A stretch of DNA of 64,000 bases. It comes from an uncultured Nitrospiraceae bacterium. Its GTDB lineage: Bacteria; Nitrospirota; Thermodesulfovibrionia; Thermodesulfovibrionales; Dissulfurispiraceae. Under the pieces are notes generated by a model. It saw nothing but the letters and a program-made list of their open reading frames with translations. It was not told the origin of the DNA and did no database searches. Of this stretch, positions 41,030-58,703 are shown piece by piece (positions within the stretch are counted from its first letter, which is position 1; the number at the start of each line of letters is the position of its first letter). The DNA lies in NCBI GenBank assembly GCA_903822005.1, contig CAIJNL010000025.1, forward strand, positions 62,001 to 126,000, read 5' to 3'. Made by a program: the position numbers and the translations under genes.

Positions 41030-42067
41030 TCACGACAGCGGAGAGATGCCGAATTCTTGAGCAGCCTTGTTTAAGTTATGCAGTACGGGCGAGCTGACCG
41101 GTATGCCGTTGGCAAGGCGTTCCCTGGCAGTCTCCTCTTCAATTTCGCCGGGCAGAAAAATCTTTTCGAAACCTTCGCCAAGCTTTGCGCCTGTCACCAT
41201 GCTGATCAGGTCAGCCATCCTGCTGTAAAAATCCGCTTCGCCAAAGAGGTCGATCTCGATCGCCCAGATAAAAGCACCGACGCCCGCGGTGTCGGTATTA
41301 TTCCCCAGCATGGTCTTTATGTTTTTACCGTAGTTCGCGCCTGACAGGACTCCGCAGAAGATGTCCGAGAAGAGGGCGAGGCCGGAGCCTTTGGGCCCGC
41401 CCAGGGGAAGCATAGAGCCCTGGAGCGCCGCTTTGGAATCAGTGGTATTCCGACCGTCTTTATCCAGTGCCCACCCTGCGGGAATCGTCTCTCCCTTTTC
41501 GGAGGCGAGCATGATCTTTCCTTTGGCCACAACTGAAGTAGCCATGTCAATTACTATGGTCTTTCCATCCGGAGCAGGAGCGCTGAAGCAAATGGGATTG
41601 GTGCCGAGGATTGGTTCACTTCCTCCCCAGGGGGGCATGTTCGGTGCAGAGTTTGTCGTGACAAAACTCATCAGGCCTCTGCCGGCCAGTATTCTGGCAT
41701 AGTAGGCGCATGTTCCGATATGGTTTGTATTGTTGATGCCTGCAGCGCCGACACCGTGCAATCCGGCATTGCTGATAACTTCCTGCACGGCCATTAATGC
41801 GGTCGGCTGCCCCCATCCATTGTTGCCGTTAACAAGGGAAACGGCTTTTTTCCGCCACTCGACAATGGGTTTGTTCGCTGCCTGTAGCATGCCCCTCTTC
41901 GCCGCTTTCAGATAAAGAGGTATCCTGAGTGCCCCGTGCGTGTCGAGGCCCCGCAGATCGGCATCGATAAGCGCGTCGGCCGTAATGCCCGCTTCTTCTT
42001 CCGGAGTGTTTACGGTCCGCAGAAGATCATAATAGAAAGTCCTTAATGCAGCTGCTGCAATTCTCAT
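41030..42067 (-). CDS. Ldh-family (malate/sulfolactate/ureidoglycolate-type) NAD(P)H dehydrogenase
   Basis: A 345-residue NAD(P)-dependent 2-hydroxyacid dehydrogenase of the family that includes L-malate, L-lactate, ureidoglycolate, 2,3-diketo-L-gulonate and (R)-sulfolactate enzymes. Motifs: DTHGALRIP, INNTNHIGTCAYYA, PPWGG..LGTNPI, MATSVVAKGKI and PLGGPKGSGLAL. GGGG precedes the ATG. It is divergent from a GntR gene and shares its AT-rich operator region, so it is very probably regulated by that protein. It would oxidise the hydroxyacid catabolised by the neighbouring operon. Confidence 0.9.
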   Translation of the reverse strand: MRIAAAALRTFYYDLLRTVNTPEEEAGITADALIDADLRGLDTHGALRIPLYLKAAKRGMLQAANKPIVEWRKKAVSLVNGNNGWGQPTALMAVQEVISNAGLHGVGAAGINNTNHIGTCAYYARILAGRGLMSFVTTNSAPNMPPWGGSEPILGTNPICFSAPAPDGKTIVIDMATSVVAKGKIMLASEKGETIPAGWALDKDGRNTTDSKAALQGSMLPLGGPKGSGLALFSDIFCGVLSGANYGKNIKTMLGNNTDTAGVGAFIWAIEIDLFGEADFYSRMADLISMVTGAKLGEGFEKIFLPGEIEEETARERLANGIPVSSPVLHNLNKAAQEFGISPLS

Positions 42068-43097: not shown

Positions 43098-43130
43098 TTG
43101 ACAAGAAACATATATTATATATAATATATG
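43098..43130 (+). promoter_or_regulatory. Sigma-70-type promoter with overlapping 22-bp palindrome upstream of the MmgE/PrpD operon
   Basis: TTGACA (43098-43103) and TATAAT (43120-43125) are separated by 16 bp, a near-consensus promoter. A perfect 22-bp palindrome made of ATATATTAT and ATAATATAT half-sites (43109-43130) covers the -10. It is the best-formed member of the operator-like family seen at four promoters of this island. The rest of the 42897-43252 gap shows nothing recognisable. Confidence 0.7.
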
Positions 43131-43252
43131 CCTGAGTTTGCGGAGACATAGTGGTATCCATTTGCTGCGATATATTCCCCGGCAGCAGAAAGTATTCAGG
43201 CGCTTTTTTAAGAATAAGGACACTTACTTCTTCAGAAAAGGGGTGGCTTAAC

Positions 43253-44605
43253 TTGAGCGGAGAAAATTCAACAAATAATCTTCAGTCTGGAGTCGCGGCA
43301 TTCGTATCAAAACTGCAGTATGAAGACCTGCCTTCAAATGTCATTGAAGATGCAAAGTACAGGGTTTTAGACTGGATCGGAAGCGCGCTGGCCGGTGTCA
43401 GCTACAAACCGTCCAGGATTATTACCGCAATGGCCCGGTCAGCTGGAGGGGCGTCCCAATCTACTGTTATTAGAGGTTCTGTAAAGGTGCCGGTCCCCGT
43501 GGCCGCATTTGCCAACGGGCTTATCGGGCATGTGGCCGAATTTGATGACGGACACAGGCTCGCCATCGGCCACCCGGGAGCAGTGACCGCACCCGTTGCG
43601 CTTGCTGTTGCCGAGGGCCATAAAAGAAGCGGAAAAGAGTTGCTGGCGGCGCTCGTTGCCGGGTACGAGGTGTTTATCAGGCTGGGCATTGCCGTTAATC
43701 CGTCCCATTACAGGATATGGCATACAACCAGCACCTGCGGTACTTTTGCCGCCGCTGCAACTGCCTCATCCCTGCTGAAACTGGACTATACAAAGACGCT
43801 TATGGCCATAGGGACATCAGGGACAATGGCTTCGGGGTTTCTTGCAAAGACGATCGGTACCAATGCCAAGCCGCTGAATGCCGCCCATGCGTGCCAAAGC
43901 GGTGTTCAGGCGGCACTGCTTGCAATGGAAGGCTTTACAGGGCCGGACGATATCCTGACGGGTGAAAAAGGTTTTATTCAGGCAACATCTACGGACTGCA
44001 ACACGCAGCTTCTTGAAGAGATAAGCAGCGGCAAATTTCTCTCTAACACTGCTTTCTACAAGGTCTATGCGTCCTGCGGGCATACCAATTCTCCGCTTGA
44101 CGCAATATTCATGATCATGCAGGAAAACGAAATACCGGTGGAATCGATCAGGAGGGTACAGATTGCGACCTATCGCACCGCTGTTGAACTCTGCGGAAGG
44201 TTCAGGAATAGTGACGAGGAGGAGGCAAAGTTTTCCCTGCCGTATTGTATTGCAGTCGCGCTCCTGTATAAAAAAATGACGCTGGAAGAGTTTACTGCCG
44301 ACAAACTCAAAAGCCCGGTAGTAAAGGAGCTTGCGGGAAAGGTGACTGTTGTAGAGGACCCGGAAGCCACCAAGGTGTTTCCGGCACGATGGGCAGCAAT
44401 AAAAGTGGAACTTGATAACGGTACGGTGATTGAGAAAAAGGTGACTGCCTCGAGCGACGCCCCTGACTATTCTGCTCTCGAAGAGAAGTTCATTTCGCTG
44501 GCAATGACAAGCGTTGATTACGAGACTGCAGTCGAAATACGGTCTTTGACCATGGATATGGACAAAGTGGATGACATAAAAAAGCTTATGGGTCTTTTGG
44601 GATAA
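43253..44605 (+). CDS. MmgE/PrpD-family protein
   Basis: A 450-residue protein of the family that holds 2-methylcitrate dehydratase, cis-aconitate decarboxylase and iminodisuccinate epimerase. Family marks: VAEFDDGHRLAIGHPGAVTAPVALA in the large domain and a C-terminal small domain with VEDPEATKVFPARWAAIKVEL. The TTG at 43253 is chosen because AAAGGGGTGG lies upstream and the length fits the family; a GTG at 43151 with GGAGA is an alternative adding 34 residues. The lyase gene follows after 24 bp. Likely substrate: a hydroxy- or imino-di/tricarboxylate. Confidence 0.85.
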   Translation: MSGENSTNNLQSGVAAFVSKLQYEDLPSNVIEDAKYRVLDWIGSALAGVSYKPSRIITAMARSAGGASQSTVIRGSVKVPVPVAAFANGLIGHVAEFDDGHRLAIGHPGAVTAPVALAVAEGHKRSGKELLAALVAGYEVFIRLGIAVNPSHYRIWHTTSTCGTFAAAATASSLLKLDYTKTLMAIGTSGTMASGFLAKTIGTNAKPLNAAHACQSGVQAALLAMEGFTGPDDILTGEKGFIQATSTDCNTQLLEEISSGKFLSNTAFYKVYASCGHTNSPLDAIFMIMQENEIPVESIRRVQIATYRTAVELCGRFRNSDEEEAKFSLPYCIAVALLYKKMTLEEFTADKLKSPVVKELAGKVTVVEDPEATKVFPARWAAIKVELDNGTVIEKKVTASSDAPDYSALEEKFISLAMTSVDYETAVEIRSLTMDMDKVDDIKKLMGLLG

Positions 44606-44629
44606 AAAAACAAGAGGAGGACTAATCTG

Positions 44630-46000
44630 ATGGCTTGCAGCAAGATTGAATCGGTTTTATACAGGGACTTTTTCAGTACGGCAAAGATGAGGGAAATATG
44701 GGATGATTGTTCGATTATCCAGTATTGGCTGGATACCGAGGCCGCGCTGGCAGAGAGCCAGGCCGAAATGGGCATTATACCGGTCGAAATCGCCAAAGAG
44801 ATTGTGAAGAAGGCGAAAGTGGAGAACCTGGATCTTGACGCAATAAGGGACGAAGTCAACAGGATCGGCCACTCCCTGGTGCCGACTCTTAGGGAATTCC
44901 AGAAGAAGTGCGACGGGAAAGCAGGCGAATATATCCATCTCGGCGCCACCACTCAGGACATAATTGATATGGGTTTTATATTGGCCGCGAAGAAGGCGTT
45001 CGATGTGGTTTATGAGGACCTGTATGAAGTCGAAGAGCTGCTGGTCAATCTGGCGGAAGAACACAAAAATACGATCATGGCCGGCAGAACTCATGGCCAG
45101 CAGGCACTGCCGATCACTTTCGGATATAAGGCGGCCGTATGGGCGAGCGAGATCCACAGGCATCTGGAGCGGATGGAAGAATGCAAAAAGAGAGATTTTG
45201 TGGGGCAGCTGAGCGGCGCTGTCGGTACGCTGGCCAGTTTCGGAGATCGCGCACTCGAACTTCAGGAAAGAGTGATGAGCAAGCTCGACCTCATGGTGCC
45301 CGACATATCATGGCATGCGAGCCGGGACAGGATTGTCTCCATCGTGAGCGTGCTGGCCATGATCACAGGATCATTGGGCAAAATCGGCAATGAGATCGTC
45401 TCACTCCAGAAGACCGAATGCTCCGAACTTGCGGAGCCGTGGGCCGACGGAGTGGTCGGCAGCAGCACAATGCCGCATAAGAGAAATCCGGGGGCCACGG
45501 AAGGGATGGTTACACTGTCCAAGTTTGTAAAAGGCAGCCTCGTGACAATACATGAAGCCCTTTTCCAGGAGCATGAGCGTGACGGCGCTTTCTGGAAGAT
45601 AGAGTGGGTGGCTTTACCGGAAGCGTTTATATATACCGGCGCTACGCTGGCAAAGGCCAAAAAAGTGCTGAAGGGGTTGGTCGTAAACAAGAAGAAGATG
45701 GAGCAGAACCTCGACATACTCAAGGGATTATTACTGTCAGAAGCAGCGATGCTCCACCTCGGCGAAAAACTGGGCAAACAGACCGCTCACGAGGTGGTCT
45801 ACGAAATTTCGATGAAGGCGTTCAAGGATGACGCCTCTTTCAAACAGTATCTGCTGGATGATCCGAGGGTAAGCAAATATTTCACTGCCGGAGACCTGGA
45901 CAAGATCCTGGACCCGCATGCATATACCGGTTTCAGCAGGCAGCTGGCTGAACGGGTTGTAACGAATATCCGGAAGGCCCGCGTGGAAAAAGGTCAGTAG
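44630..46000 (+). CDS. Fumarase/aspartase-superfamily lyase (adenylosuccinate lyase/CMLE-like)
   Basis: A 456-residue lyase that would cleave C-N or C-O bonds beta to a carboxylate and release fumarate or a related alkene. Motifs: GATTQD (105-110), the catalytic His in GRTHGQ (152-157) and the catalytic-Ser loop GSSTMPHKRNP (277-287). It is closest by eye to PurB and PcaB-type members, but genomic context argues against purine synthesis. Its strict pairing with an MmgE/PrpD gene and a DcuC carrier points to a C4-dicarboxylate adduct as substrate (inference). AGAGGAGGA precedes the ATG. Confidence 0.9.
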   Translation: MACSKIESVLYRDFFSTAKMREIWDDCSIIQYWLDTEAALAESQAEMGIIPVEIAKEIVKKAKVENLDLDAIRDEVNRIGHSLVPTLREFQKKCDGKAGEYIHLGATTQDIIDMGFILAAKKAFDVVYEDLYEVEELLVNLAEEHKNTIMAGRTHGQQALPITFGYKAAVWASEIHRHLERMEECKKRDFVGQLSGAVGTLASFGDRALELQERVMSKLDLMVPDISWHASRDRIVSIVSVLAMITGSLGKIGNEIVSLQKTECSELAEPWADGVVGSSTMPHKRNPGATEGMVTLSKFVKGSLVTIHEALFQEHERDGAFWKIEWVALPEAFIYTGATLAKAKKVLKGLVVNKKKMEQNLDILKGLLLSEAAMLHLGEKLGKQTAHEVVYEISMKAFKDDASFKQYLLDDPRVSKYFTAGDLDKILDPHAYTGFSRQLAERVVTNIRKARVEKGQ

Positions 46001-46034
46001 AAAAAATATACGGCTGACGGGGGGGGAGAGAATA

Positions 46035-47423
46035 ATGCTTGGACTTATTTTAACTACACTTGTGATAGTCTGGATCATCTATATGCTCGCACACAAGTAT
46101 AAACCGCAGGGGGTATTATTTGCAGCAGGCATTGTCCTCATGCTCTGCACCGTCGGCTTCGGATTAGGGCCGATTTTGACCGCAAAACAGTCGACCGGCT
46201 TTGTATTTTTTGACATATTCGAGGCCATAAAGAGATTGTTCAGCGACAGGCTGGCAGGCCTGGGCCTGACAATCATGTCTATTGGCGGATATGTAAGGTA
46301 TATGGAGCATTGCGGCGCAAACCAGGCCCTGGTCGAAGTTTCGACCAAACCGCTGAAACTGCTGAGATCGCCGCTTGCCGTGCTTATGCTTGCATACCTG
46401 ATCGGCCAGATACTGAACATCTTTGTGCCGAGCCATGCAGGGCTGGCGTTGTTGCTGATGTTGACCATGTATCCAATTCTTCGACAGGCGGGGATCAGCA
46501 AACTTACGGCCTGTGCAATCATCGCGACCGCCAAATTTACAGACATTGGTCCCGTTTCTTCCAATGCAGTTTTGGCTGCGCATTCCGCAGGACTCGACCC
46601 GACCATTTATTTCATACAATATCAGTTTCCGGTCATATGGCCGGCTGTACTTGCGGTGGGTGTAACACACTATTTTCTCCAGCCCTGGTGGGACAAACGA
46701 GAGGCGCGCGCAGGCATAGCGGGAGCAGCTATTCAGGAGGCAACTCCGGAAAATATCCCTGAAGGCACTGTTAAGGAAAAGGCGCCGATGGTCTACGCTA
46801 TCCTACCGACCCTGCCGCTGATACTGGTGGTGACGTTCTGCCCGCTGTTTGTCACTTCGATCAGGGTCGACGTCATAACCGCGATGCTTATTTGTACTGT
46901 GGTCACGATGCTTTTTGAATTTGCGAATTACCGGAAAATCCGTCCGGTGCTCGAGAACATTATGACCTATTTCGAAGGCATGGGGAAAACCTTTGCACTG
47001 GTGGTTTCCCTTGTTATATGCGCTGAAACCTTTGCGCTGGGACTTATGAAGATCGGGACCGTGGATACCCTGATTACCCTGGCCCAGGACGCCGGCCTGG
47101 GGTTGGTGCCAATGGTTTTCGTTATCAGCGCGATTATGATTGTTAGCGCGTTCCTTATGGGTTCAGGCAATGCCGCGTTCTTCGCTTTTGCGAGCATAGC
47201 CCCCAAGGTATCGGCACATCTGAAGGTGGAACCGGTAATGATCCTTCTGCCCATGGAATTGACTTCCGGTATGGGCCGCTGCATGTCGCCCATAGCGGCC
47301 GCTATTGTCGCCATTGCTACCATCGCGGGAGTATCGCCTTTTCAGGTCGTGAAGAGGTGTGTCATACCGGTCTTTGTTGCCATTGTTGTAAATATGGCGG
47401 CCACATACATAATCTTTTTGTAG
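46035..47423 (+). CDS. C4-dicarboxylate transporter, DcuC-like (copy 1)
   Basis: A 462-residue inner-membrane carrier with about twelve hydrophobic segments. Signatures shared with the second copy at 50822: MLAHKYKPQGVL, RLAGLGLTIMSIGGYVRYME, FVPSHAGLALLLMLTMYPIL, TAKFTDIGPVSSNA. DcuC-type carriers exchange or export C4-dicarboxylates in anaerobes. GGGGGGAG precedes the ATG. It lies between the lyase and the aconitase homologue, so it may import the substrate or exchange it for succinate or fumarate. Confidence 0.85.
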   Translation: MLGLILTTLVIVWIIYMLAHKYKPQGVLFAAGIVLMLCTVGFGLGPILTAKQSTGFVFFDIFEAIKRLFSDRLAGLGLTIMSIGGYVRYMEHCGANQALVEVSTKPLKLLRSPLAVLMLAYLIGQILNIFVPSHAGLALLLMLTMYPILRQAGISKLTACAIIATAKFTDIGPVSSNAVLAAHSAGLDPTIYFIQYQFPVIWPAVLAVGVTHYFLQPWWDKREARAGIAGAAIQEATPENIPEGTVKEKAPMVYAILPTLPLILVVTFCPLFVTSIRVDVITAMLICTVVTMLFEFANYRKIRPVLENIMTYFEGMGKTFALVVSLVICAETFALGLMKIGTVDTLITLAQDAGLGLVPMVFVISAIMIVSAFLMGSGNAAFFAFASIAPKVSAHLKVEPVMILLPMELTSGMGRCMSPIAAAIVAIATIAGVSPFQVVKRCVIPVFVAIVVNMAATYIIFL

Positions 47424-47490: not shown

Positions 47491-49389
47491 ATGGGCGCCG
47501 ATTTGCTGGATAAAATTGTAAAGTCGCATCTCGCCGGCGGAGAGATAAAGGCGGGCTGCGAAGTTGGCATTTCCATAGACCAGACTCTGACCCAGGATGC
47601 CCTTGGCACCATGGCCTACCTTCAGTTTGAGGCAATGGGCGTTCCCAGGGTAAAGACCAAGATGTCAATATCCTATGCCGACCATCTCATGCTGCAGCAG
47701 GGTTTTGAGAATGCGGACGATCACCGCTACCTCCAGACAGTCGCGGCAAAATACGGAATATATTTTTCGAGGCCCGGAAACGGCATCTGCCACCAGGTCC
47801 ATCTCGAGCGGTTCAGCCGTCCGGGCTGGACGCTTATCGGAGGCGACAGCCATACACCTACCTGCGGAGCTGTCGGCATGCTTGCCATAGGCGTCGGCGG
47901 GCTTGATGTGGCCGAGGCTATGGCCGGCAATAATTTTTATTTCAGTTATCCGCGGGTTGTCCGGATAAACCTTAACGGGCGGCTGAAGCCATGGTCAACA
48001 GCAAAGGACGTCATCCTTGAGGTGCTGAAAAAAATTACGACCAAAGGCAATGTCGGCAAGATGATCGAATATGGCGGTTCTGGCATATCCGCGCTATCGG
48101 TTCCGGAACGCGCCACTATCACCAACATGGGGGCCGAGCTCGGAGTCACTACCTCAATATTTCCGAGTGATGAAGTGACCCGGCAGTTTTTGGAGGCTCA
48201 GGGCCGCTCCGGTGACTGGGTCGAGCTAAAGCCGGACCCGGATGCCATATACGACGAAGTGCTTGATTTTGATCTTGGCGCCATAGAGCCGAATGTGGCA
48301 ATGCCTCATTCGCCCGATAATGTCTGCAGGGTGAAAGAGGCGGCCGGAATAAAGGTTGATCAGGTATTGGTCGGCAGCTGCACAAACTCCTCATTCCGTG
48401 ATCTGATGATAGTGGCCGCGATGCTGAAAGGCAAAAGAGTGCATCCTGATGTCAGTTTTGGAGTTGCCGCGGGTACGAGGCAGGTATTAAGAATGATCAG
48501 TGCAAACGGGGCCCTCACGGACATTATTGATTCCGGGGCGCGCATACTTGAGACCGCCTGCGGTTTTTGTGTAGGCTACGGTCAGTCGCCACAGACGGGC
48601 GCGATTTCGGTTCGCACCAACAACCGCAATTACAAAGGCAGGAGCGGAACAAAAGATGCCAACGTCTACCTGGTCAGCCCGGAAACAGCGGTTGCGACCG
48701 CCATCGCGGGCAGGCTTACGGATCCGCGCGATATGGGGATTAAATATCCTTATATAGCACCGCCGGAGGTTTTCTTTTCAGACAATGATGAAATGATTAT
48801 CAGGCCTGGAAATAACGACGTAAAGGTAGTTCGCGGTCCTAACATCGGAGACCCGGTTTCCAAACCGCCAATGCCCGAAGATTTGAGGGTCAGGGTCGCC
48901 ATAAAGGTGGGTGATAAGATCACAACGGACCATATACTCCCGTCCGGACCGGTGGGCCATTATAGATCAAATGTTCCGAAATCGAGCGAATTTCTGTTTC
49001 GAGATGTAGACCCCCGCTTTATTCAGCGTTGCGCCGAAAATAAAGCCGGCAATGCGGGATCAGCCATTATCGGGGGACTCAGTTACGGGCAGGGGTCTTC
49101 GCGGGAGCATGCGGCCCTATGTCCGATGTATCTCGGAGTGCGCATGGTAATCGCTAAAAGCATTGAGCGCATTCATATGACAAATCTTGTGAACTTCGGC
49201 ATCCTGCCGCTGGTCTTTGTAAATGAAAGCGATTATGACAGGCTCGAAAATGGTGATGAACTGCTTATAACCGGAACGGGCCAGGCGCTTAGGCAGACTG
49301 CCATACATGTGAAAAATATTACCCAAAATTATGAGTTTGGCGTATCTCACAGCCTTACACCCAGGCAGGTCGGAAACCTGCTCAGTTAA
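47491..49389 (+). CDS. Aconitase-superfamily hydro-lyase (single-chain)
   Basis: A 632-residue [4Fe-4S] dehydratase with large domain and C-terminal swivel domain in one chain. Motifs: DSHTPTCGAVGMLAIGVGG, cluster Cys in GSCTNSS and the CxxC of CGFCVG, and swivel YGQGSSREHAA. The CxxC loop reads CGFC where CGPC is usual, a mark that this may be a paralogue rather than the housekeeping aconitase. Candidates: aconitase, isopropylmalate- or 2,3-dimethylmalate-type isomerase/dehydratase. Placement inside a hydroxyacid operon favours a dedicated role (inference). Confidence 0.88.
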   Translation: MGADLLDKIVKSHLAGGEIKAGCEVGISIDQTLTQDALGTMAYLQFEAMGVPRVKTKMSISYADHLMLQQGFENADDHRYLQTVAAKYGIYFSRPGNGICHQVHLERFSRPGWTLIGGDSHTPTCGAVGMLAIGVGGLDVAEAMAGNNFYFSYPRVVRINLNGRLKPWSTAKDVILEVLKKITTKGNVGKMIEYGGSGISALSVPERATITNMGAELGVTTSIFPSDEVTRQFLEAQGRSGDWVELKPDPDAIYDEVLDFDLGAIEPNVAMPHSPDNVCRVKEAAGIKVDQVLVGSCTNSSFRDLMIVAAMLKGKRVHPDVSFGVAAGTRQVLRMISANGALTDIIDSGARILETACGFCVGYGQSPQTGAISVRTNNRNYKGRSGTKDANVYLVSPETAVATAIAGRLTDPRDMGIKYPYIAPPEVFFSDNDEMIIRPGNNDVKVVRGPNIGDPVSKPPMPEDLRVRVAIKVGDKITTDHILPSGPVGHYRSNVPKSSEFLFRDVDPRFIQRCAENKAGNAGSAIIGGLSYGQGSSREHAALCPMYLGVRMVIAKSIERIHMTNLVNFGILPLVFVNESDYDRLENGDELLITGTGQALRQTAIHVKNITQNYEFGVSHSLTPRQVGNLLS

Positions 49390-49514: not shown

Positions 49515-50825
49515 TTGGAACAGATAAACGGCAAAGGCGGCATGAAGATTGTTTCTTTCCCTTATGGAGAGAAATACGTCGACCTTGAAATTTCGAAGGA
49601 AGCGGATGTGCTGATGCCTGAACTGGTTACGGGTGTGCCGGATGAACTGGAAGAGATTCGCAGAGCTCTGTCGCAGCCGACAGGCAGTGTCCGTCTTAAT
49701 ATGCTCGCCAGGGGTAAAATAAGCGTTGCTATAGTTATTAATGATATAACCCGGCCGTCGCCGACCGAAATCATGCTTACGGCGATACTCGAAGAACTCG
49801 CGGCAGCCGGAGTCAGCGAAGAGCAGGTTACGGTACTCATCGCTAACGGCAATCACGAGCTCGCAACCGGCGAAGAATTGAAAAAGATGCTCGGCATATG
49901 GAATTCCAGGCTGAAAATTATCAATCACGACTGCAAGGACGAGAGCTCGCTGATGTATTTAGGCAGTACCGGACGCGGATTGCCGGTATACGTAAACAGG
50001 CATTACATGGAAGCCTCTTTGCGGATACTTACAGGAGTCATTACGCCCCATCAGTCTGCAGGGTTCGGCGGCGGCAGAAAATCCGTCGTACCAGGCATTG
50101 CGGGCATGCAGACCATAAAAAAGCTCCACTCGTTTCCGATAAGGCCTGACGGGCCGGTGCTCGGAATCATCAAAGGCAACCGGTTCCATGAGGAAGTCGT
50201 CACAGCAGCCCGGATGGCAGGGGCAGATTTTATTGTCAACGTGATAAAAAATTACAGCGGTGAAATCGTCGAAGCTGTGGCAGGTGAACTCGACATGGCC
50301 CACCTGCATGGGGTCGCAGTCTGCGAAAAATCATGGGTGCGAAAAGTCGGAAAGGCCTACGATGTCGTATTTGTGAGTGCCGGGCGTTATCCAAAGGACG
50401 TTGATCTGCATCAGTCGCAAAAAGGCCTGGTGGTCGCGGAACAGGTAACCAGGCCGGGCGGGACGATCGTGCTGATTGCGGAGTGCCGGAATGGAACAGG
50501 CAAGTTCGGGAAGGTGTTAAGGGAAGCAGAGAGCGTTGAAGAAGTAATTCAGGACTTTCTTGCGACAGGCTCTTCGGAGGACAACAAAGGCAAGGCCTAC
50601 CTGTTCGCGAGATGCTGCCAAAAGCATAAGGTGTTTGTTGTAACCGAAGGTATCGACCGGAAAGAGATTGAAGAAATGTTCATGACGGGTTTCACATCAA
50701 TCTCCGAAGCGGCAAATAGCGCGCTGGCCCAATACTCTAATCCTTCTGTCCTGTGTATACCGTATGCCGCCGAATGCATCCCGGTCCTGGAAGTTAAATC
50801 GGCTTGTGGGAGGGTTAAAAAATGA
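49515..50825 (+). CDS. LarA-family nickel-dependent hydroxyacid racemase homologue (copy 1)
   Basis: A 436-residue homologue of lactate racemase LarA, which uses the nickel-pincer cofactor. Catalytic positions of L. plantarum LarA (D72, R75, H108, H174, K184, H200) have counterparts D77, R80, H114, H179, K189 (GGGRKSVVPG) and H205, so the site appears complete. It would invert a 2-hydroxyacid. The TTG at 49515 has GAGG upstream; ATG at 49542 is an alternative giving the more typical N-terminus. Cofactor-synthesis genes larB, larC and larE are not in the window. Overlaps the next DcuC gene by 4 bp. Confidence 0.88.
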   Translation: MEQINGKGGMKIVSFPYGEKYVDLEISKEADVLMPELVTGVPDELEEIRRALSQPTGSVRLNMLARGKISVAIVINDITRPSPTEIMLTAILEELAAAGVSEEQVTVLIANGNHELATGEELKKMLGIWNSRLKIINHDCKDESSLMYLGSTGRGLPVYVNRHYMEASLRILTGVITPHQSAGFGGGRKSVVPGIAGMQTIKKLHSFPIRPDGPVLGIIKGNRFHEEVVTAARMAGADFIVNVIKNYSGEIVEAVAGELDMAHLHGVAVCEKSWVRKVGKAYDVVFVSAGRYPKDVDLHQSQKGLVVAEQVTRPGGTIVLIAECRNGTGKFGKVLREAESVEEVIQDFLATGSSEDNKGKAYLFARCCQKHKVFVVTEGIDRKEIEEMFMTGFTSISEAANSALAQYSNPSVLCIPYAAECIPVLEVKSACGRVKK

Positions 50826-52186
50826 CAGGACTCATACTGTCTTCAATTGTCATAGTCTGGGTCGCCTATATGCTGGCAAAAAAGTTCAAGCCGCAGGGCG
50901 TATTGCTGACAGCCGGAGTCCTTCTGATGATCTTTGCGGTCGTGTTCGATATCGGAAGGATCCTGCCTGCGAAGCAGTCGACAGGTTTTATCGGCTTTGA
51001 CATATTTGCAGCCCTGAAAGGGCTGATGAGCGACAGGCTGGCAGGGCTGGGTCTTACCATAATGTCTATCGGCGGATTTGTAAGGTATATGGAAAAATGC
51101 GGGGCAAACAGGGCCCTGGTAGAAGTTTCGACATATCCGCTCAAATTCATGAAATCACCGATGCTTGTGCTGATGATGGGATATACTGTCGGCCATATGG
51201 TGGATATATTCGTTCCGAGTCATGCGGGCCTGAGCCTGCTCCTGATGCTGACCTTATATCCGATCCTGGTTAAGGCAGGGATCAACAAGCTTACAGCGGT
51301 CACCATCATAGCCACCGCAAAATTTACCGACATCGGCCCCATTTCATCAAACGCCATCCTGGCGGCACATACTGCGGGCCTCGATCCGGTCGTTTATTTC
51401 CTTAAATGGCAGATGCCGGTTGTCATAGCCCCAATATTTATAGTAGGTATAGCTCACTATTTCATCCAGCCCTGGTGGGAGAGACGGGAAGCGCTCGCGG
51501 GCATTCAGGATGTTGGCACGGATAAAGAACCTGCCGGAGAAAGGCCTCCGCTCATTTATGCCATCCTGCCGACCCTGCCGCTGGTACTGGTGATTGTATT
51601 CTGTCCATTGGTAGTTACTTCGATCAAGATGGATGTTATTTCGGCAATGCTTATATGCACTATGGTGTCCATGCTCTTTGAAATTGTCCGTCTCAGGGAC
51701 CTGCGCCTCGTAATGGACAACATCATGACCTTCTTTGAGGGTATGGGAACGCAGTTCGTAGTCGTGGTATCGCTTGTCATTTGCGCCGAGACCTTTGGCA
51801 TGGGTCTTGTAAAGATCGGCGCGGTCGATACCCTTATCCAGGGAGCGCAGTCGGCCGGGTTCGGGCTGAAGGCCATGGTTTTTATAATCAGCATAATAAT
51901 GGTTGCCTCTTCGTTCCTAATGGGTTCGGGCAATGCCTCATTCTTTGCCTTTGCGAGTCTTGCCCCGAACATAGCCGCATCCCTGAAGGTTGAGTCAGTG
52001 CTGATATTGCTGCCAATGGAAATCACATCCGGTTTTGGCCGCTGCATGTCTCCGATAACCCCGGCCATTGTTGCCATAGCGGGCATAGCAGGTGTGTCGC
52101 CTTTCCAGGTCGCCAAGCGCTGCGCGATACCGGTGGCACTCGGGCTGATTGCCAATATGATCTCGACCTATGTCATATTTTTATAA
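50822..52186 (+). CDS. C4-dicarboxylate transporter, DcuC-like (copy 2)
   Basis: A 454-residue carrier that is clearly paralogous to the one at 46035 (same SIGGFVRYMEKCGANRALVEVS, PSHAGLSLLLMLTLYPIL and TAKFTDIGPISSNA segments; much of the nucleotide sequence is alignable by eye). It overlaps the LarA-1 stop (ATGA) and is translationally coupled to it. Two carriers in one operon suggest different substrates or uptake versus exchange. Confidence 0.86.
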   Translation: MTGLILSSIVIVWVAYMLAKKFKPQGVLLTAGVLLMIFAVVFDIGRILPAKQSTGFIGFDIFAALKGLMSDRLAGLGLTIMSIGGFVRYMEKCGANRALVEVSTYPLKFMKSPMLVLMMGYTVGHMVDIFVPSHAGLSLLLMLTLYPILVKAGINKLTAVTIIATAKFTDIGPISSNAILAAHTAGLDPVVYFLKWQMPVVIAPIFIVGIAHYFIQPWWERREALAGIQDVGTDKEPAGERPPLIYAILPTLPLVLVIVFCPLVVTSIKMDVISAMLICTMVSMLFEIVRLRDLRLVMDNIMTFFEGMGTQFVVVVSLVICAETFGMGLVKIGAVDTLIQGAQSAGFGLKAMVFIISIIMVASSFLMGSGNASFFAFASLAPNIAASLKVESVLILLPMEITSGFGRCMSPITPAIVAIAGIAGVSPFQVAKRCAIPVALGLIANMISTYVIFL

Positions 52187-52268
52187 TGCGCAGGATTGCA
52201 GGCGGAGCGGACCAAAAGCATCAGTATGATGAGAAGAGTCAGGAAAGCAAAAAGAAAGGAATAAAAAA

Positions 52269-53537
52269 ATGATATCCGTAAACATTCCATATGGGAAAAG
52301 TCACATCAAAATCCAGATACCCGGGAAGCGCCTTGCCGGGATACTGGAATCGCGGGCACATCAATACAAGCCTGAGGCGGGTGAGGAAGAACTTGTACGT
52401 AAGTCACTCGAAAATCCTATAGGGTCGCGCACGCTGAGTGAACTCGCAAAAGGACGTAACAAGGTCGTGATAATAACTAGCGACCATACGCGGCCGGTGC
52501 CGACTAAAATTATTGCCCCGCAACTGCTGGCCGAGATACGCAAAGGCAATCCCGGGGCGGACATCACCTTTCTGGTCGCTACCGGGTTTCACCGCGCAAC
52601 TACGGAAGCGGAATTGCTGAATAAATTCGGGCCCGGGATGCGGAAGAACGAAAAGATAGTTGTCCATAACTGCTGGGCACCGAATTCTATGATCAATGCA
52701 GGTAAACTTCCGTCGGGTGGAGATCTGATAATCAACAAACTCGCGATGGAAGCCGACCTTCTCATTGCGGAAGGCTTTATAGAGCCCCATCTCTTTGCGG
52801 GGTTTTCGGGTGGACGGAAAAGCGTGCTGCCCGGCATTGTGAGCGAAGTGACCGTGCTGGCGAACCACTGTGCCGAGTTCATCGCCCATGACAAGGCAAG
52901 GGCCGGAATCCTGAAAGGCAATCCCATGCATGAGGACATGGTGTATGCCGCCAAACAGGCCAAACTGGCATTCATTGCGAATGTGATAATCGATTCAGAC
53001 AAAAAGATTATCAAAGCAGTGGCCGGAGACCCCGAACAGGCCCATCTGGAGGGCTGCCGTTTTGCCGGAGAACTCGCGGCTGTCGAAGCGAAGCCTGCGG
53101 ACATAGTCATTACCTCCAACGGCGGCTACCCGCTCGACCAGAATGTCTACCAGCACGTAAAAGCCCTGACCTCAGCCGAGTCTACCTGCAGGGAAGGCGG
53201 GGTAATCATCGCGTGCGCGGCCTGCAACGACGGGCATGGCAGCGAAGATCTCTACCACTGGCTCTGCGGAGGGGCAAAAGAGGCGATGGACAAAATAATG
53301 AAGATCGACAGGGATGCGACCATTCCGGACCAGTGGGCAACGCAGATCATGGCGCGCGTCCAGCTGAAACATACGGTCATATTTGTGACCGATCAGTGCG
53401 ACCACAAGATAATCACCGACATGGGTTTTAAGGCCGCATGCACATTTGAGGAAGCAATGGCAGCTGCCGAGGCAATAGTCGGTGCAGAATCAGGCATTAC
53501 CGTGATTCCGGACGGAGTAGCTGTAATAGTGAACTGA
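52269..53537 (+). CDS. LarA-family nickel-dependent hydroxyacid racemase homologue (copy 2)
   Basis: A 422-residue LarA homologue with catalytic numbering identical to L. plantarum LarA: D72 and R75 (SDHTRP), H108, H174, K184 (SGGRKSVLPG) and H200. Substrate-side residues differ from copy 1, so the two probably act on different hydroxyacids. Preceded by AAAAGGAA, 82 bp after DcuC-2. The LarA superfamily includes racemases of lactate, malate, phenyllactate and others plus gluconate epimerases, so the substrate cannot be assigned. Confidence 0.9.
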   Translation: MISVNIPYGKSHIKIQIPGKRLAGILESRAHQYKPEAGEEELVRKSLENPIGSRTLSELAKGRNKVVIITSDHTRPVPTKIIAPQLLAEIRKGNPGADITFLVATGFHRATTEAELLNKFGPGMRKNEKIVVHNCWAPNSMINAGKLPSGGDLIINKLAMEADLLIAEGFIEPHLFAGFSGGRKSVLPGIVSEVTVLANHCAEFIAHDKARAGILKGNPMHEDMVYAAKQAKLAFIANVIIDSDKKIIKAVAGDPEQAHLEGCRFAGELAAVEAKPADIVITSNGGYPLDQNVYQHVKALTSAESTCREGGVIIACAACNDGHGSEDLYHWLCGGAKEAMDKIMKIDRDATIPDQWATQIMARVQLKHTVIFVTDQCDHKIITDMGFKAACTFEEAMAAAEAIVGAESGITVIPDGVAVIVN

Positions 53538-53567: not shown

Positions 53568-53867
53568 ATGGCAATAGACGCAATAGTCCTGAATGAAGCC
53601 GACAATGTTGCTACAGCGGTACAGGACCTTAAGGCAGGGCAGGAGGCATCTGTGCGGCTTAACCGCCTTCTCAACACGATAGGCATAAAAGAAGACATCC
53701 CGTACGGGCACAAGTTTGCAGTGAAGCCCGTCCGCAGCGGGGACGATATTCTGAAGTATGGAGAGGTCATTGGACGTGCGACAGCAGATATAGCAGTCGG
53801 TTGCCATGCCCATGTGCAGAACATCGAAAGCATGCGCGGTCGTGGCGACCTCGGGAAGGGGGCATAA
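53568..53867 (+). CDS. UxaA/SuyA-type small subunit (SAF domain)
   Basis: A 99-residue SAF-domain protein equivalent to the N-terminal part of altronate/galactarate dehydratases. The segment VGCHAHVQNIESMRGRGDLG is the typical end of that domain, with metal-candidate His. It is separately encoded, as in the SuyA subunit of (2R)-sulfolactate sulfo-lyase, rather than fused as in UxaA. AAAGGAAGAAAGGGAG precedes the ATG. Only 2 bp separate it from the large subunit. Confidence 0.85.
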   Translation: MAIDAIVLNEADNVATAVQDLKAGQEASVRLNRLLNTIGIKEDIPYGHKFAVKPVRSGDDILKYGEVIGRATADIAVGCHAHVQNIESMRGRGDLGKGA

Positions 53868-53869
53868 AT

Positions 53870-55030
53870 ATGGAATTCATGGGATATCGCCGCTCGGACG
53901 GCACAGTGGGTACACGCAATTATGTGGGAGTTTTGTCAGCAGTTGTATGCGTAAACGAAGTAGTCGAAGGCATTGTCCGCCAGGTGCAGGGCACGGCCCG
54001 TTTCACGCACCATCAAGGCTGCTGCCAGACCCCGCTGGATATCGGACTGGTCAACAAGGCGCTGAAAGGCCTGGGCTGCAATCCTAATCTGCATTCAGTG
54101 CTGCTCATCAGCCTCGGCTGCGAGAGCACCAATCTTGAAGAAGTAATAGCTGCGATACGCGCCAGCGGCAAAAGGGTGGAGCATCTCGCTGTACAGGAAA
54201 CCGGCGGATCGGCGCGTACTATCGCGCAAGGGGTACTGCTCGCGCAGGAAATGGTTGGCGAGGCGTCCCGCCGGCAGAGAGAACCCTTTCCGATAAGCAA
54301 TCTGGTAATGGGCATGAAATGCGGCAGCTCTGATACGACCTCTGGCCTGGTGCCGAACCCGGCCATCGGGGTCACTTCTGACCTGCTGGTTGCCGCGGGC
54401 GGAGTCTCCATCCTGGGCGAAGTGACCGAATTCATCGGGGCTGAACATATACTGATACGTCATGCTGCAAACGAGACGGTGGCGCAGGGCATTCTCAAGC
54501 TGGTGGAACGCATGGAAAAAAGGGCCATGGCAGTCGGGGAAGACATTCGCGGCGGGCAGCCGACCGGAGGCAACATCAAGGGCGGGCTTACCACTATCGA
54601 GGAAAAATCGCTCGGGGCAATCGCGAAAGCCGGCACAGCGCCTATCCAGGCTGTTTATGAATACGGCGAGCGCCCGACTGTAAAGGGGCTGGTAGTTATG
54701 GATTCTCCTGGCCGCGAGCCCGAGATCCTGACCGGACTTGCCGCCGCAGGCGCGAATGTCATAGTGTTCGCAACCGGACGCGGCGCGCCTCAGGGTTTTC
54801 CGTTTGTGCCTGTGCTCAAGATTACGGGCAGCCGCACTGCGGCCGAGAAGATGAGCGACCACATCGATATGGACTTAAGCGCGGTCATAGACGGCGGGGA
54901 CACAATTCCTGACGCTGGACAGCGGATACTCGAAGAACTTGTCCGCGTCGCTTCCGGGGCAATGACCAAGGCTGAAATATCGGGCTATGTAAATTCAATG
55001 GATATCTATATGCTGGGGCCCGTCATTTAA
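53870..55030 (+). CDS. UxaA/SuyB-type large (C-terminal) subunit
   Basis: A 386-residue catalytic subunit of the altronate-hydrolase/galactarate-dehydratase C-terminal family. Marks: MGYRRSDGTVGTRNYVGVL, LGCESTNLEE, MGMKCGSSDTTSG (iron/substrate loop) and GGNIKGGLTTIEEKSLGA. Members eliminate water, or sulfite in SuyAB, from hydroxyacids. ATG at 53870 after GGGAAGGGGG, 2 bp past the small subunit. This is the last catabolic gene before the second GntR regulator. Candidates: tartrate-, malate- or hexarate-like dehydratase or sulfolactate sulfo-lyase. Confidence 0.87.
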   Translation: MEFMGYRRSDGTVGTRNYVGVLSAVVCVNEVVEGIVRQVQGTARFTHHQGCCQTPLDIGLVNKALKGLGCNPNLHSVLLISLGCESTNLEEVIAAIRASGKRVEHLAVQETGGSARTIAQGVLLAQEMVGEASRRQREPFPISNLVMGMKCGSSDTTSGLVPNPAIGVTSDLLVAAGGVSILGEVTEFIGAEHILIRHAANETVAQGILKLVERMEKRAMAVGEDIRGGQPTGGNIKGGLTTIEEKSLGAIAKAGTAPIQAVYEYGERPTVKGLVVMDSPGREPEILTGLAAAGANVIVFATGRGAPQGFPFVPVLKITGSRTAAEKMSDHIDMDLSAVIDGGDTIPDAGQRILEELVRVASGAMTKAEISGYVNSMDIYMLGPVI

Positions 55031-55065
55031 GAGATGCCCCCGGTTGAAAACATATTCAGGTTCAT

Positions 55066-55080
55066 ACTATATAATATAGA
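55066..55080 (+). promoter_or_regulatory. Operator-like -10 region of the second GntR gene
   Basis: ACTATATAATATAGA carries a near-palindrome (CTATAT-A-ATATAG) with the nonamer ATAATATAG at 55071-55079, one base from the ATAATATAT family. It contains TATAAT (55070-55075), only 7 bp before the ATG of the GntR gene. Confidence 0.55.
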
Positions 55081-55082
55081 GT

Positions 55083-55772
55083 ATGAAAAAGCTGAAAAAA
55101 GACCCAAAACCGGGCAAAAACCCGACTATGAGCAAGAAGCAGCTTGCTTATGAGTATATACGTTCGAAGATCCAGGATGAGACCTATGTGCCGGGTTCGC
55201 GTATAGTAATCGACCGGATCGCGCGGGAACTGAAATTAAGCATCATCCCTGTGCGGGAAGCCATACAGCAGCTTGAAGCGGACGGATATATACAGGTCAT
55301 ACCTTACAGCGGGGCCGTTGTCCAGCTGATGAACGAGTATGATTTTCAGGAAACCATCGGGGTGCTTGCTGTTCTGGACGGCGCAGCCACCGCATTTGCG
55401 GCCGGGAAAATGACGCAGCAGGACATTGCCAGGCTCGAGAGCATAAACGAAGCCATGAGGGAGGCCCTTTATAACTTTAAATTCGAGCAGGTCGGCGAGC
55501 TGAACAGGAAATTTCATGAAGTAATATATAAAAAATGCGGCAACTCGTATCTGCATGACAGATTGAAACTTACCTGGCAGAGGCTTTCGCAGATCCGCAA
55601 ATCCGTTTTTTCCCTTGTTCCCCAGCGCGCGAAAGATGCGATCAGGGAGCATGAAGAGCTTATTAAACTGCTTAAAGAATCGGCTTCTCCGGCGAAGCTG
55701 GAGAAGTTTATCCGTCAGCACAAGATGAACATGCTGACTGCCTTTCTGAACCGTAAAGAGGCGCGGCGATGA
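55083..55772 (+). CDS. Second GntR-family regulator, FCD subfamily
   Basis: A 229-residue regulator with a basic N-terminal tail (KKLKKDPKPGKNP), winged HTH (VPGSRIVIDRIARELKLSIIPVREAIQQLEADG) and FCD ligand domain with an expected His (LNRKFHEVIYKKCGN). Different from the GntR at 42237 in sequence, so not a recent duplicate. No ribosome-binding site precedes the ATG; TATAAT ends 7 bp upstream, so transcription may begin at or next to the start codon (leaderless). An ATG at 55128 also lacks a ribosome-binding site. Confidence 0.88.
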   Translation: MKKLKKDPKPGKNPTMSKKQLAYEYIRSKIQDETYVPGSRIVIDRIARELKLSIIPVREAIQQLEADGYIQVIPYSGAVVQLMNEYDFQETIGVLAVLDGAATAFAAGKMTQQDIARLESINEAMREALYNFKFEQVGELNRKFHEVIYKKCGNSYLHDRLKLTWQRLSQIRKSVFSLVPQRAKDAIREHEELIKLLKESASPAKLEKFIRQHKMNMLTAFLNRKEARR

Positions 55773-55815
55773 ACTGACAAGGTTCGGCAGCGTTCCATTT
55801 ATTGCTATTTTCCGG

Positions 55816-55850
55816 AATCCCGGGTGGACAGATCTCTCCCGGGATTTTTT
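55816..55850 (+). terminator. Intrinsic terminator of the catabolic operon/GntR-2
   Basis: AATCCCGGG (55816-55824) and CCCGGGATT (55838-55846) form a perfect 9-bp stem followed by a T-run. Confidence 0.85.
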
Positions 55851-55957
55851 ATGCGACTGTTTGCGGCAGGAGACCGGTGCCTCCGGAATAGTGCATGTTC
55901 CATATGGTGGTGGGGACGCTGCCCGACAAGAAAAATAACTTGCAAAACAGCCTGGAG

Positions 55958-56018
55958 ATAATATATATTCTTAGGGATAAATAATATATGATTTTAAGAT
56001 AAAAGATATATTATTTAT
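55958..56018 (+). promoter_or_regulatory. Triple operator-like AT-rich region upstream of the MFS gene
   Basis: ATAATATAT occurs at 55958-55966 and 55981-55989, and its complement ATATATTAT at 56006-56014. The last two sit in a perfect 13-bp inverted repeat (55977-55989 and 56006-56018) with a 16-nt spacer. A possible promoter TTGCAA-N18-TATATT (55940-55969) overlaps. The rest of the 55773-56154 gap contains only the GntR-2 terminator. Confidence 0.6.
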
Positions 56019-56154
56019 GAACTATGATGATATCTTTTTTGCAGAAAGGAGAGAAAGTTGGCCCTGTTTCAGGATTGCCCGCAGGCAGTTTCAGACGAAA
56101 TTATTTCAAAGGATCATTTTAGCGAGAAAATAAGCATTACCGGGGGGGAAGGTC

Positions 56155-57453
56155 ATGTCAGCACAGGTTGAGGTTAGTCAGGCTGTGAATGTAAACGAGA
56201 AACCGACAAAGCAGCGCCTTGTAATTATAGCGGTACTGGTTGTCGGCATAATGGTCGCCTATCTGGACCGTGTGAACGTATCGGTCCTGGGCGCCAATGA
56301 TCAGTTTTTGATGTACATGGGGATCAAGGGACAGCCGGTACAGATCGGCATGATGATGTCTCTTTTTCTGGCGGCCTACGGACTCGCAAATATTACGCTG
56401 AGCCCGCTGGGTGATTATCTGGGACCGCGCAAGGCGATGTGTATCTGCATTGTTTTGTGGACCATTTCTCTTTTTGTCGGAGGCTTTGCAACCAGTTTCA
56501 CCATATTTCTTATTGCCCGCATTATTCTCGGTGTAGGCGAGGGTTTTTATTATCCGATGCAGAGCCTCTTTGTCAAAAACTGGATCCCGCCACAGGAACG
56601 CGGCAGGGCAAACGCCACTTGGGTGATCGGGCAGTCACTGGCGCCCGCCATAGCCATGCCCCTGTTTGCTTATGTAATCGGCAACTTTGGCTGGCAGGTC
56701 AGCTTTTATTTGTGTATAGCAATAGGATTCATTCCGCTTTATCTGCTCTGGTACCACACTACAGACAAACCGTCCGAAAGCAAAAAAATCAATGCCCTTG
56801 AACTCAAGCATATTGAAGACGGCATGGCAAGAGAGAGGAAGAGCGGGGAAACTGCCGAAAAGCAGACCCTTTTGCAGAGGATCAAACCCTTTGCGACGAA
56901 TTATCAGTACTGGCTTCTCGCGCTCTGGTACATGTGCCTGCAGTTCATCTTCTGGGGCCTGATATCATGGCTGCCCGCTTATCTTAAATCAGCGCGCGGT
57001 TTTACCTGGACCGAAATGGGCTGGATGGCGTCCCTGCCGTTTATAATGACGGTAATCACAAAAGCAGTGAACGGCTGGCTCAACGACAAGATCGGCCGGA
57101 GCGCTCCGCTTCTCAGCGTGACCATGCTTTTCAGCGCCGTCTGCGTATATTTTGCCGCTACTGTCAGCGGCAGATACGAATCGGCCATTCTGTTGTCATT
57201 AGCCTTTGGTTTTACCTCGATGTCAACATCTTCAGCCTGGACCCTGCTGCAGGGCCTGGTGCCGGGGAGGTCGCTGTCGACCGCTGCCGGGACCATGAAC
57301 GGGCTAGCGACCGGTTTTTCCTCGTTGTCGCCGGTCATAATCGGCGCTGTTATAGGTTTGACGAGTGATTACGAAAGCGGTCTGCTCTGCCTGGTGGGAG
57401 TGGGTCTGCTCGCATCGGCCACAGCAGGCATTTTGACACTGAAAAAACATTAA
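56155..57453 (+). CDS. MFS transporter, anion:cation symporter (ACS) type
   Basis: A 432-residue, 12-TM carrier of the ACS branch that includes hexuronate, galactonate and glucarate permeases. Motifs: YLDRVNVSV in TM1, PLGDYLGPRKA (loop 2-3), ARIILGVGEGFYYP in TM4. It probably imports the sugar acid used by the enolase-superfamily enzyme encoded 60 bp downstream. GGGGGGGAAGG precedes the ATG; an AT-rich operator cluster lies upstream. Confidence 0.9.
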   Translation: MSAQVEVSQAVNVNEKPTKQRLVIIAVLVVGIMVAYLDRVNVSVLGANDQFLMYMGIKGQPVQIGMMMSLFLAAYGLANITLSPLGDYLGPRKAMCICIVLWTISLFVGGFATSFTIFLIARIILGVGEGFYYPMQSLFVKNWIPPQERGRANATWVIGQSLAPAIAMPLFAYVIGNFGWQVSFYLCIAIGFIPLYLLWYHTTDKPSESKKINALELKHIEDGMARERKSGETAEKQTLLQRIKPFATNYQYWLLALWYMCLQFIFWGLISWLPAYLKSARGFTWTEMGWMASLPFIMTVITKAVNGWLNDKIGRSAPLLSVTMLFSAVCVYFAATVSGRYESAILLSLAFGFTSMSTSSAWTLLQGLVPGRSLSTAAGTMNGLATGFSSLSPVIIGAVIGLTSDYESGLLCLVGVGLLASATAGILTLKKH

Positions 57454-57512
57454 CGAATTACAGACTTTTTTAAAAAATTAAAGCGTAAGGAAATAACAGG
57501 AGGTAGCAATCG

Positions 57513-58703
57513 ATGAAAATTACGAGTGTAGACATTATTGATGTAGCCAATGATTTTTCGTCGGCAACGAGCAAGTGGCGTCCGGTAGTTGTCAGGATCA
57601 ACACGGACGAGGGGATAACCGGGTTTGGCGAAGTGGGGCTTGCATATGGAGTCGGGGCCTCTGCAGGTTTCGGCATGGCCAAGGACCTTGCGAAGATCAT
57701 CATCGGGATGGACCCGATGAAAAACGAGGCGATCTGGGACAAGATGCAGAAGAAGACCTTTTGGGGCCAGGGAGGCGGGACAATCTTTTCTGCGGGCATG
57801 AGCGGCATCGACATCGCTCTCTGGGACATCAAGGGCAAGGCGCTCAACACCCCGATCTATCAGCTGCTGGGCGGAAAGACGCGCGACAAGATCAGGGCCT
57901 ACGCGAGCCAGATCCAGTTCGGCTGGGGAGATGGCAGCGACAAAGCGATGCTGATCGAGCCGAAGCAGTATGCCGAAGCAGCGCTGATAGCTGTTTCCGA
58001 AGGATATGATTCGCTGAAAGTAGACGCGATTGCGATGGATGAAAAAGGCAACTGGAATCAGCGCAATCTTAACGGCGTGCTTTCGGACAGGACACTCAGA
58101 CTCGGCTACAACAGGCTTAAAGCCATAAGGGATGCTGTCGGTCCAGATGTGGACATAATCGCAGAGATGCATTCATTTACAGATACAACCGCGGCCATCC
58201 AGTTCGGCAGGATGATTGAAGAGCTTGGCATCTACTATTATGAAGAGCCTGTAATGCCGCTGAATCCCAAACAGATGAAGAAAGTGGCAGACAACGTAAG
58301 AATTCCGATTGCTGCAGGCGAAAGGATTTATACCAGGTGGGGTTACAGGCCGTTCTTTGAAGACGGGTCAATCGACGTAATACAGCCTGATATATGCACC
58401 TGCGGCGGCCTTACCGAGGTCAAGAAGATCTGCGACATGGCCCATGTCTATGACGTTACCGTGCAGATACATGTCTGCGGCGGACCAATCTCGACAGCAG
58501 CGGCACTGCAGGTCGAGGCGGCAATACCTAATTTTTTGATCCACGAGCTTCACAGGTACGCCCTGCTTCTGCCGAATACTAAGAGCTGCAAGTACAACTA
58601 TCTGCCGTCCAAGGGCGTTTATGAAGTGCCGGATCTGCCGGGACTCGGGCAGGAACTGACAGAGGAGACGATCAAGGCTTCTATAATAGAAACAGTTAAG
58701 TAA
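57513..58703 (+). CDS. Enolase-superfamily acid-sugar dehydratase (mandelate racemase/DgoD-like)
   Basis: A 396-residue TIM-barrel enzyme. Metal ligands E218 (in AEMHS), E244 (YYEEP) and E270 (AAGER); candidate catalysts H220, two residues after the first ligand as in galactonate dehydratase, and the D293-H320 dyad (QPDICTCGG, QIHVCGGP); E345 (IHELH) completes the site. The first metal ligand is Glu where DgoD has Asp. The carrier gene upstream points to a sugar-acid dehydratase (inference). AGGAGG precedes the ATG. Confidence 0.9.
   Translation: MKITSVDIIDVANDFSSATSKWRPVVVRINTDEGITGFGEVGLAYGVGASAGFGMAKDLAKIIIGMDPMKNEAIWDKMQKKTFWGQGGGTIFSAGMSGIDIALWDIKGKALNTPIYQLLGGKTRDKIRAYASQIQFGWGDGSDKAMLIEPKQYAEAALIAVSEGYDSLKVDAIAMDEKGNWNQRNLNGVLSDRTLRLGYNRLKAIRDAVGPDVDIIAEMHSFTDTTAAIQFGRMIEELGIYYYEEPVMPLNPKQMKKVADNVRIPIAAGERIYTRWGYRPFFEDGSIDVIQPDICTCGGLTEVKKICDMAHVYDVTVQIHVCGGPISTAAALQVEAAIPNFLIHELHRYALLLPNTKSCKYNYLPSKGVYEVPDLPGLGQELTEETIKASIIETVK

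Follow-up and report, generated by a model that had tools for sequence, protein, structure and literature searches.

Two predicted LarA-family racemases around a DcuC carrier: one of lactate-racemase type and one related to malate racemase, with an unusual predicted substrate pocket

What could two LarA-like racemases encoded on either side of a dicarboxylate carrier be doing, and where would their nickel-pincer cofactor (NPN) come from when no gene for its synthesis is nearby? The two genes, here called LarA-1 and LarA-2, lie in the window, i.e. the whole 64-kb stretch of DNA that was analysed, among the following features:

43098..43125, + strand: promoter-like site TTGACA-16-TATAAT ahead of the cluster (12/12 consensus positions, consensus match alone)
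43151..44605, + strand: MmgE/PrpD-family gene of the IDS-epimerase / BsIRG1 type (Pfam PF03972/PF19305; start codon uncertain)
44630..46000, + strand: lyase of the fumarase/argininosuccinate-lyase superfamily, ASL-like (PF00206/PF10397)
46035..47423, + strand: DcuC-type dicarboxylate carrier 1 (NF037994 415 bits, cut-off 100)
47491..49389, + strand: aconitase-family hydratase (NF005558 873 bits, cut-off 612)
49515..50825, + strand: LarA-1, putative LarA-family racemase, malate-racemase-like, with an atypical pocket (TTG start; ATG alternative 49542)
50822..52186, + strand: DcuC-type dicarboxylate carrier 2 (NF037994 414 bits; 4-base overlap with LarA-1)
52269..53537, + strand: LarA-2, putative LarA-family racemase of the lactate-racemase type (NF033504 616 bits, cut-off 460)
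53568..53867, + strand: SAF-domain small subunit of a UxaA-type dehydratase (PF08666; 78% to a Sporomusa termitida plasmid gene)
53870..55030, + strand: large subunit of a UxaA/GarD-type dehydratase (PF20629/PF04295; 89% to an S. termitida plasmid gene)
55083..55772, + strand: GntR regulator (60% to the GntR gene adjoining the S. termitida SAF-UxaA pair)
57513..58703, + strand: mandelate-racemase/muconate-lactonizing enzyme, enolase superfamily (PF13378/PF02746; 84% to an S. termitida plasmid gene)

The DcuC gene between the two LarA genes, described in an earlier sequence-only reading of this DNA, was confirmed, and a second DcuC gene, absent from that reading, lies upstream of LarA-1; the two carriers are 67% identical. 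LarA-1 may start at TTG 49515, which has a GAGG motif just upstream, or at ATG 49542. LarA-2 is followed by SAF, UxaA, GntR, MFS and enolase-superfamily genes. A search of the 64-kb window against Rfam gave no match. The idea that the aconitase gene of the window is the only one in the genome was rejected, as there are several aconitase-family genes, including a paralog (71-75% identical) on contig C14, the contig that also carries larB.

The first genes of the cluster look like a separate module. The nearest PDB relatives of the MmgE/PrpD protein are 7BRA and 2HP0/2HP3, and the ASL-like lyase has 3C8T, CMLE and Tad1 as PDB relatives. The true start of the PrpD-like gene is probably downstream of 43151, because the promoter-like site (43098-43125) sits just ahead of it. 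Since the same trio of MmgE/PrpD, fumarase-superfamily lyase and DcuC genes (43151-47423) recurs in E. coli (L082) and in a Proteus record (L076), we regard it as a module of its own, by its looks an iminodisuccinate-type epimerase/lyase system that would probably yield fumarate. In E. coli, fumC and metC accompany the trio, and aerobactin genes lie next to it.

Both LarA reading frames are open and full length, and both proteins contain the two Pfam domains of the family (Lar_N 2e-62 and LarA_C 2e-20 in LarA-1, 1e-68 and 9e-62 in LarA-2). Their residues were aligned with those of L. plantarum LarA (6C1W), the lactate racemase 2YJG, Mar2 (6D6Z) and the broad-spectrum LarA 9EID. The alignment bears out the earlier statements that LarA-2 has D72, R75, H108, H174, K184 and H200 at exactly the numbers of L. 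plantarum LarA, and that LarA-1 has all the catalytic counterparts (D68, R71, H105, H170, K180 and H196, numbered from ATG 49542); Q295 and K298 are kept in both proteins alike. The best E-values against solved LarA structures are 1e-155 for LarA-2 (2YJG) and 9e-75 for LarA-1 (Mar2), and chance likeness is therefore excluded. Judged by sequence, both proteins are intact and belong to the known family of nickel-pincer (LarA) racemases.

As to the cofactor, the genome is reported to be 100% complete (3.23 Mb, 48 contigs, the window being on C25), and each of the three synthesis genes was found in it with a score above its curated cut-off: larC, complete and with its LarC1 and LarC2 domains in a single chain, on C9 (485 bits), larB on C14 (270 bits against a cut-off of 175) and larE on C5 (317 bits against 150). 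These are three different contigs, none of them that of the window. The earlier reading was thus right that no larB, larC or larE lies near the LarA pair; it had also named their absence from the whole genome as the finding that would count against it, and since all three are present and intact, this objection falls away. The simple reading is that NPN is supplied in trans by the unlinked larB, larC and larE. The complete cofactor and catalytic residues, together with the full larB/C/E set, support the prediction that both LarA proteins bind NPN. The larE gene overlaps the gene of an LdhH/TfrB-like iron-sulfur protein by 8 bases (L060:5921-7928).

It could be argued that LarA-1, LarA-2 or both are catalytically dead or lack the cofactor, as the residue next to the first catalytic histidine is E109 in LarA-1 but R in the solved LarA enzymes. 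However, all catalytic and NPN-contact residues are intact in both proteins and the cofactor genes are complete, and we consider such a loss of function very unlikely.

The substrate of LarA-2 is the easier one to approach from its relatives. The protein scores 616 bits on the NCBI lactate-racemase equivalog NF033504, over the cut-off of 460, and is 55-56% identical to solved lactate racemases. The published rule for lactate racemases is F,F,W,E/Q at positions 175/176/358/359; characterised members carry T or C at the last of these (PMC11770544). LarA-2 has L,F,W,A and so departs from the usual lactate-racemase residues at the first position (L for F) and the last (A for E/Q). Compared with L. 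plantarum LarA (5HUQ/6C1W) and 2YJG, it keeps the residue numbers up to H200 and W358, but differs by L175, A359 and the unlinked larB/C/E genes. By its score and identity LarA-2 is assigned to the lactate-racemase type.

LarA-1 scores below the cut-off of every substrate-specific model: the best is the LarAH6 malate racemase (401 bits, NF052593 cut-off 500), and the score on the LarAH5 malate racemase model is 352 bits (NF052595 cut-off 462). Substrate specificity of LarA proteins is read from positions 175, 176, 358 and 359, of which the last two are H/Q-K in malate racemases and W-E/Q in lactate racemases (PMC11770544), and K359 has been tied to the second carboxylate of malate in published comparisons (PMC11770544; PMC7583248). 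LarA-1 has Q,S,G,K at these positions (L. plantarum numbering), that is, it agrees with the malate racemases in K at 359 (its own K351) and departs from them with G in place of H/Q at 358 (its own G350). It is 35% identical to Mar2 (LarAH6, 6D6Z), with which it has Q297, K359 and all catalytic residues in common, but it differs from the malate racemases Mar2/LarAH6 and LarAH5 by the Q,S after H174, by G358 and by E109, where E replaces R next to the first catalytic histidine. From its residues, we describe LarA-1 as a malate-racemase relative with a predicted unusual substrate pocket.

A nearly identical pocket signature recurs in the genome. A paralog on contig C23, 62% identical to LarA-1, shares most of the signature, having Q,S,S,K at the four positions. 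The signature of the two proteins (E109, Q175, S176, H294, G/S358, K359) lies outside the rules that the literature consulted gives for characterised LarA groups, and in a FastTree tree, which included few characterised enzymes and is weak in its deep order, they group together with support 1.0, apart from the Mar2 clade. LarA-1 may represent a new specificity subgroup. About 50 bases past the C23 paralog comes a DcuC gene, and a gene of the LarA-1 type is thus found directly 5' of a DcuC gene at two places of the genome (C25, C23). A single duplicated segment is an unlikely origin of the two pairings, because a tblastn search with DcuC 2 of the window gave no match above 60 bits in the C23 locus. 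The strongest substrate evidence available here is this twofold, separate pairing with a dicarboxylate carrier, and it agrees with K359. In named genomes, the only loci related to that of LarA-1 were three spirochaete contigs (32-36% identity), and therefore a conserved neighbourhood for LarA-1 was not found; plasmid matches were at most 35% identical.

Taken as a whole, we think it probable that LarA-1 and LarA-2 are working NPN-dependent 2-hydroxyacid racemases or epimerases, LarA-1 for an imported 2-hydroxydicarboxylate and LarA-2 for a short 2-hydroxyacid; their activity, substrates and co-expression are what we infer. Hydride transfer via the nickel-pincer cofactor is the known mechanism of LarA. 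In the proposed scheme, larB, larC and larE would provide NPN to both enzymes from elsewhere in the genome, and C2 of the substrate would be inverted by proton-coupled hydride transfer to the cofactor between the two histidines. The adjoining DcuC would import a 2-hydroxydicarboxylate, malate or a related acid such as tartrate, and LarA-1 would act on it, letting both stereoisomers into the fumarate/malate pool. LarA-2 would most likely act on lactate or another short 2-hydroxyacid, and be tied to a separate acid-sugar block (SAF-UxaA-GntR-MFS-enolase superfamily). According to published work, gene context has often been no guide to LarA substrates (PMC7583248), which counts against the scheme.

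Further observations speak against this scheme: LarA-1 stays below the equivalog cut-offs, it has no H/Q at 358, its branch with the C23 paralog is separate from Mar2, and LarA-2 has unusual residues at 175 and 359. We tentatively entertain, as a possible though not the favoured outcome, that LarA-1 and its C23 paralog form a new subgroup for a hydroxy-di- or tricarboxylate new to nickel-pincer enzymes, e.g. an isocitrate-type acid. The more specific proposal is that LarA-1 epimerizes a bulkier hydroxy-di-/tricarboxylate instead of malate, such as isocitrate/alloisocitrate from the adjoining aconitase. A G or S in place of H/Q at 358 should widen the pocket while K359 is retained, and the aconitase-family gene is immediately upstream of LarA-1; on the other hand, the neighbourhood scanned around the C23 paralog contains a DcuC gene and no aconitase gene, and no isocitrate-active LarA is named in the LarA papers searched for the term. 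We hold this proposal to be unlikely. 2-Methylcitrate and 2-methylisocitrate were rejected as LarA-1 substrates on grounds of general chemistry, as they have no H on the hydroxyl-bearing carbon.

It is instructive to compare the genes after LarA-2 with plasmid pSPTER of S. termitida, on which a cluster of the order MR-TctCBA-LarAH group 22-SAF-UxaA-GntR is found. The SAF, UxaA, GntR and enolase-superfamily genes of pSPTER are 60-89% identical to those of the window (53568-58703), but the plasmid cluster contains a LarA-family gene for a group 22 NPN isomerase and a TctCBA transporter and no LarA-1, DcuC or aconitase. LarA-2 thus appears to be attached to an acid-sugar block with an existence of its own, and the stretch in the window looks composite, because the four kinds of genes occur on pSPTER without LarA-1, DcuC and aconitase.

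This bears on the suggestion of the sequence-only reading that the two enzymes serve two distinct hydroxyacids or an epimer series in one pathway. The first part is supported by the differing specificity residues, and the second is disfavoured by the independence of the LarA-2 block on pSPTER. Successive epimerases acting on the same carbon skeleton would be in keeping with the common strand, the short gaps and a possible single operon behind the strong promoter-like site at 43098, and it is possible that LarA-1 and LarA-2 are on one transcript. Nevertheless, pSPTER carries the post-LarA-2 block with a group 22 LarA and a tricarboxylate transporter and without LarA-1, DcuC and aconitase, and the two pockets are unlike in kind (dicarboxylate in LarA-1, short-chain in LarA-2), and we find one common pathway quite improbable.

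In sulfolactate sulfo-lyase the SAF and UxaA halves are encoded separately. They are separate genes here as well, and one might imagine that LarA-2 works together with a SuyAB-like SAF-UxaA pair on a C3 acid, for instance sulfolactate, by giving the usable enantiomer; for a nearby gene of the Ldh_2 type (41030-42067), the best model is L-sulfolactate dehydrogenase, though at 256 of 500 bits. Yet in S. termitida the same SAF-UxaA pair is accompanied by a different LarA-like gene and an enolase-superfamily enzyme, and a galactarate dehydratase adjoins a group 22 gene in this genome, which makes a role in sulfolactate metabolism highly improbable.

The two genes belong to a larger set. The PF09861 (Lar_N) profile finds ten places in the 3.2-Mb genome (on C25, C34, C2, C37, C23, C14, C10 and C6), nine of them over the cut-off: six class-I genes and three of group 22, one of the latter cut by a contig end. 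The tenth, on C6, is below the cut-off and shares 38% identity with the group 22 gene of S. termitida. The four further class-I LarAs of the genome also have all the catalytic and NPN-contact residues. In a sample of 396 genomes of the phylum, in which up to 7 candidates were scored per genome, a match over the cut-off was present in 29; this genome had at least 7 therein, and the others at most 2 each. A relative of the same genus has two LarA-family genes, and most published species have one LarA (PMC11770544). Several of the ten genes were likely gained by transfer. Genes of the group 22 LarA-like type adjoin a galactarate dehydratase gene on C14 and a SAF-UxaA pair on C10 (L062:5950-8965, L064:1-2133), a pairing of LarA with UxaA that recurs.

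The two genes are new, the LarA superfamily is already known, and the finding is mostly ordinary in kind; the ten Lar_N places in a 3.2-Mb genome are more unusual than the LarA pair itself. Only about one half of the LarA superfamily has been given a predicted function (PMC11770544), and ten Lar_N places, two of which have a shared rule-breaking pocket beside dicarboxylate carriers, are a compact set for substrate assignment. If the substrate of LarA-1 is malate, the enzyme would be an ordinary means of using both enantiomers; if it is another acid, there would be one more nickel-pincer reaction.
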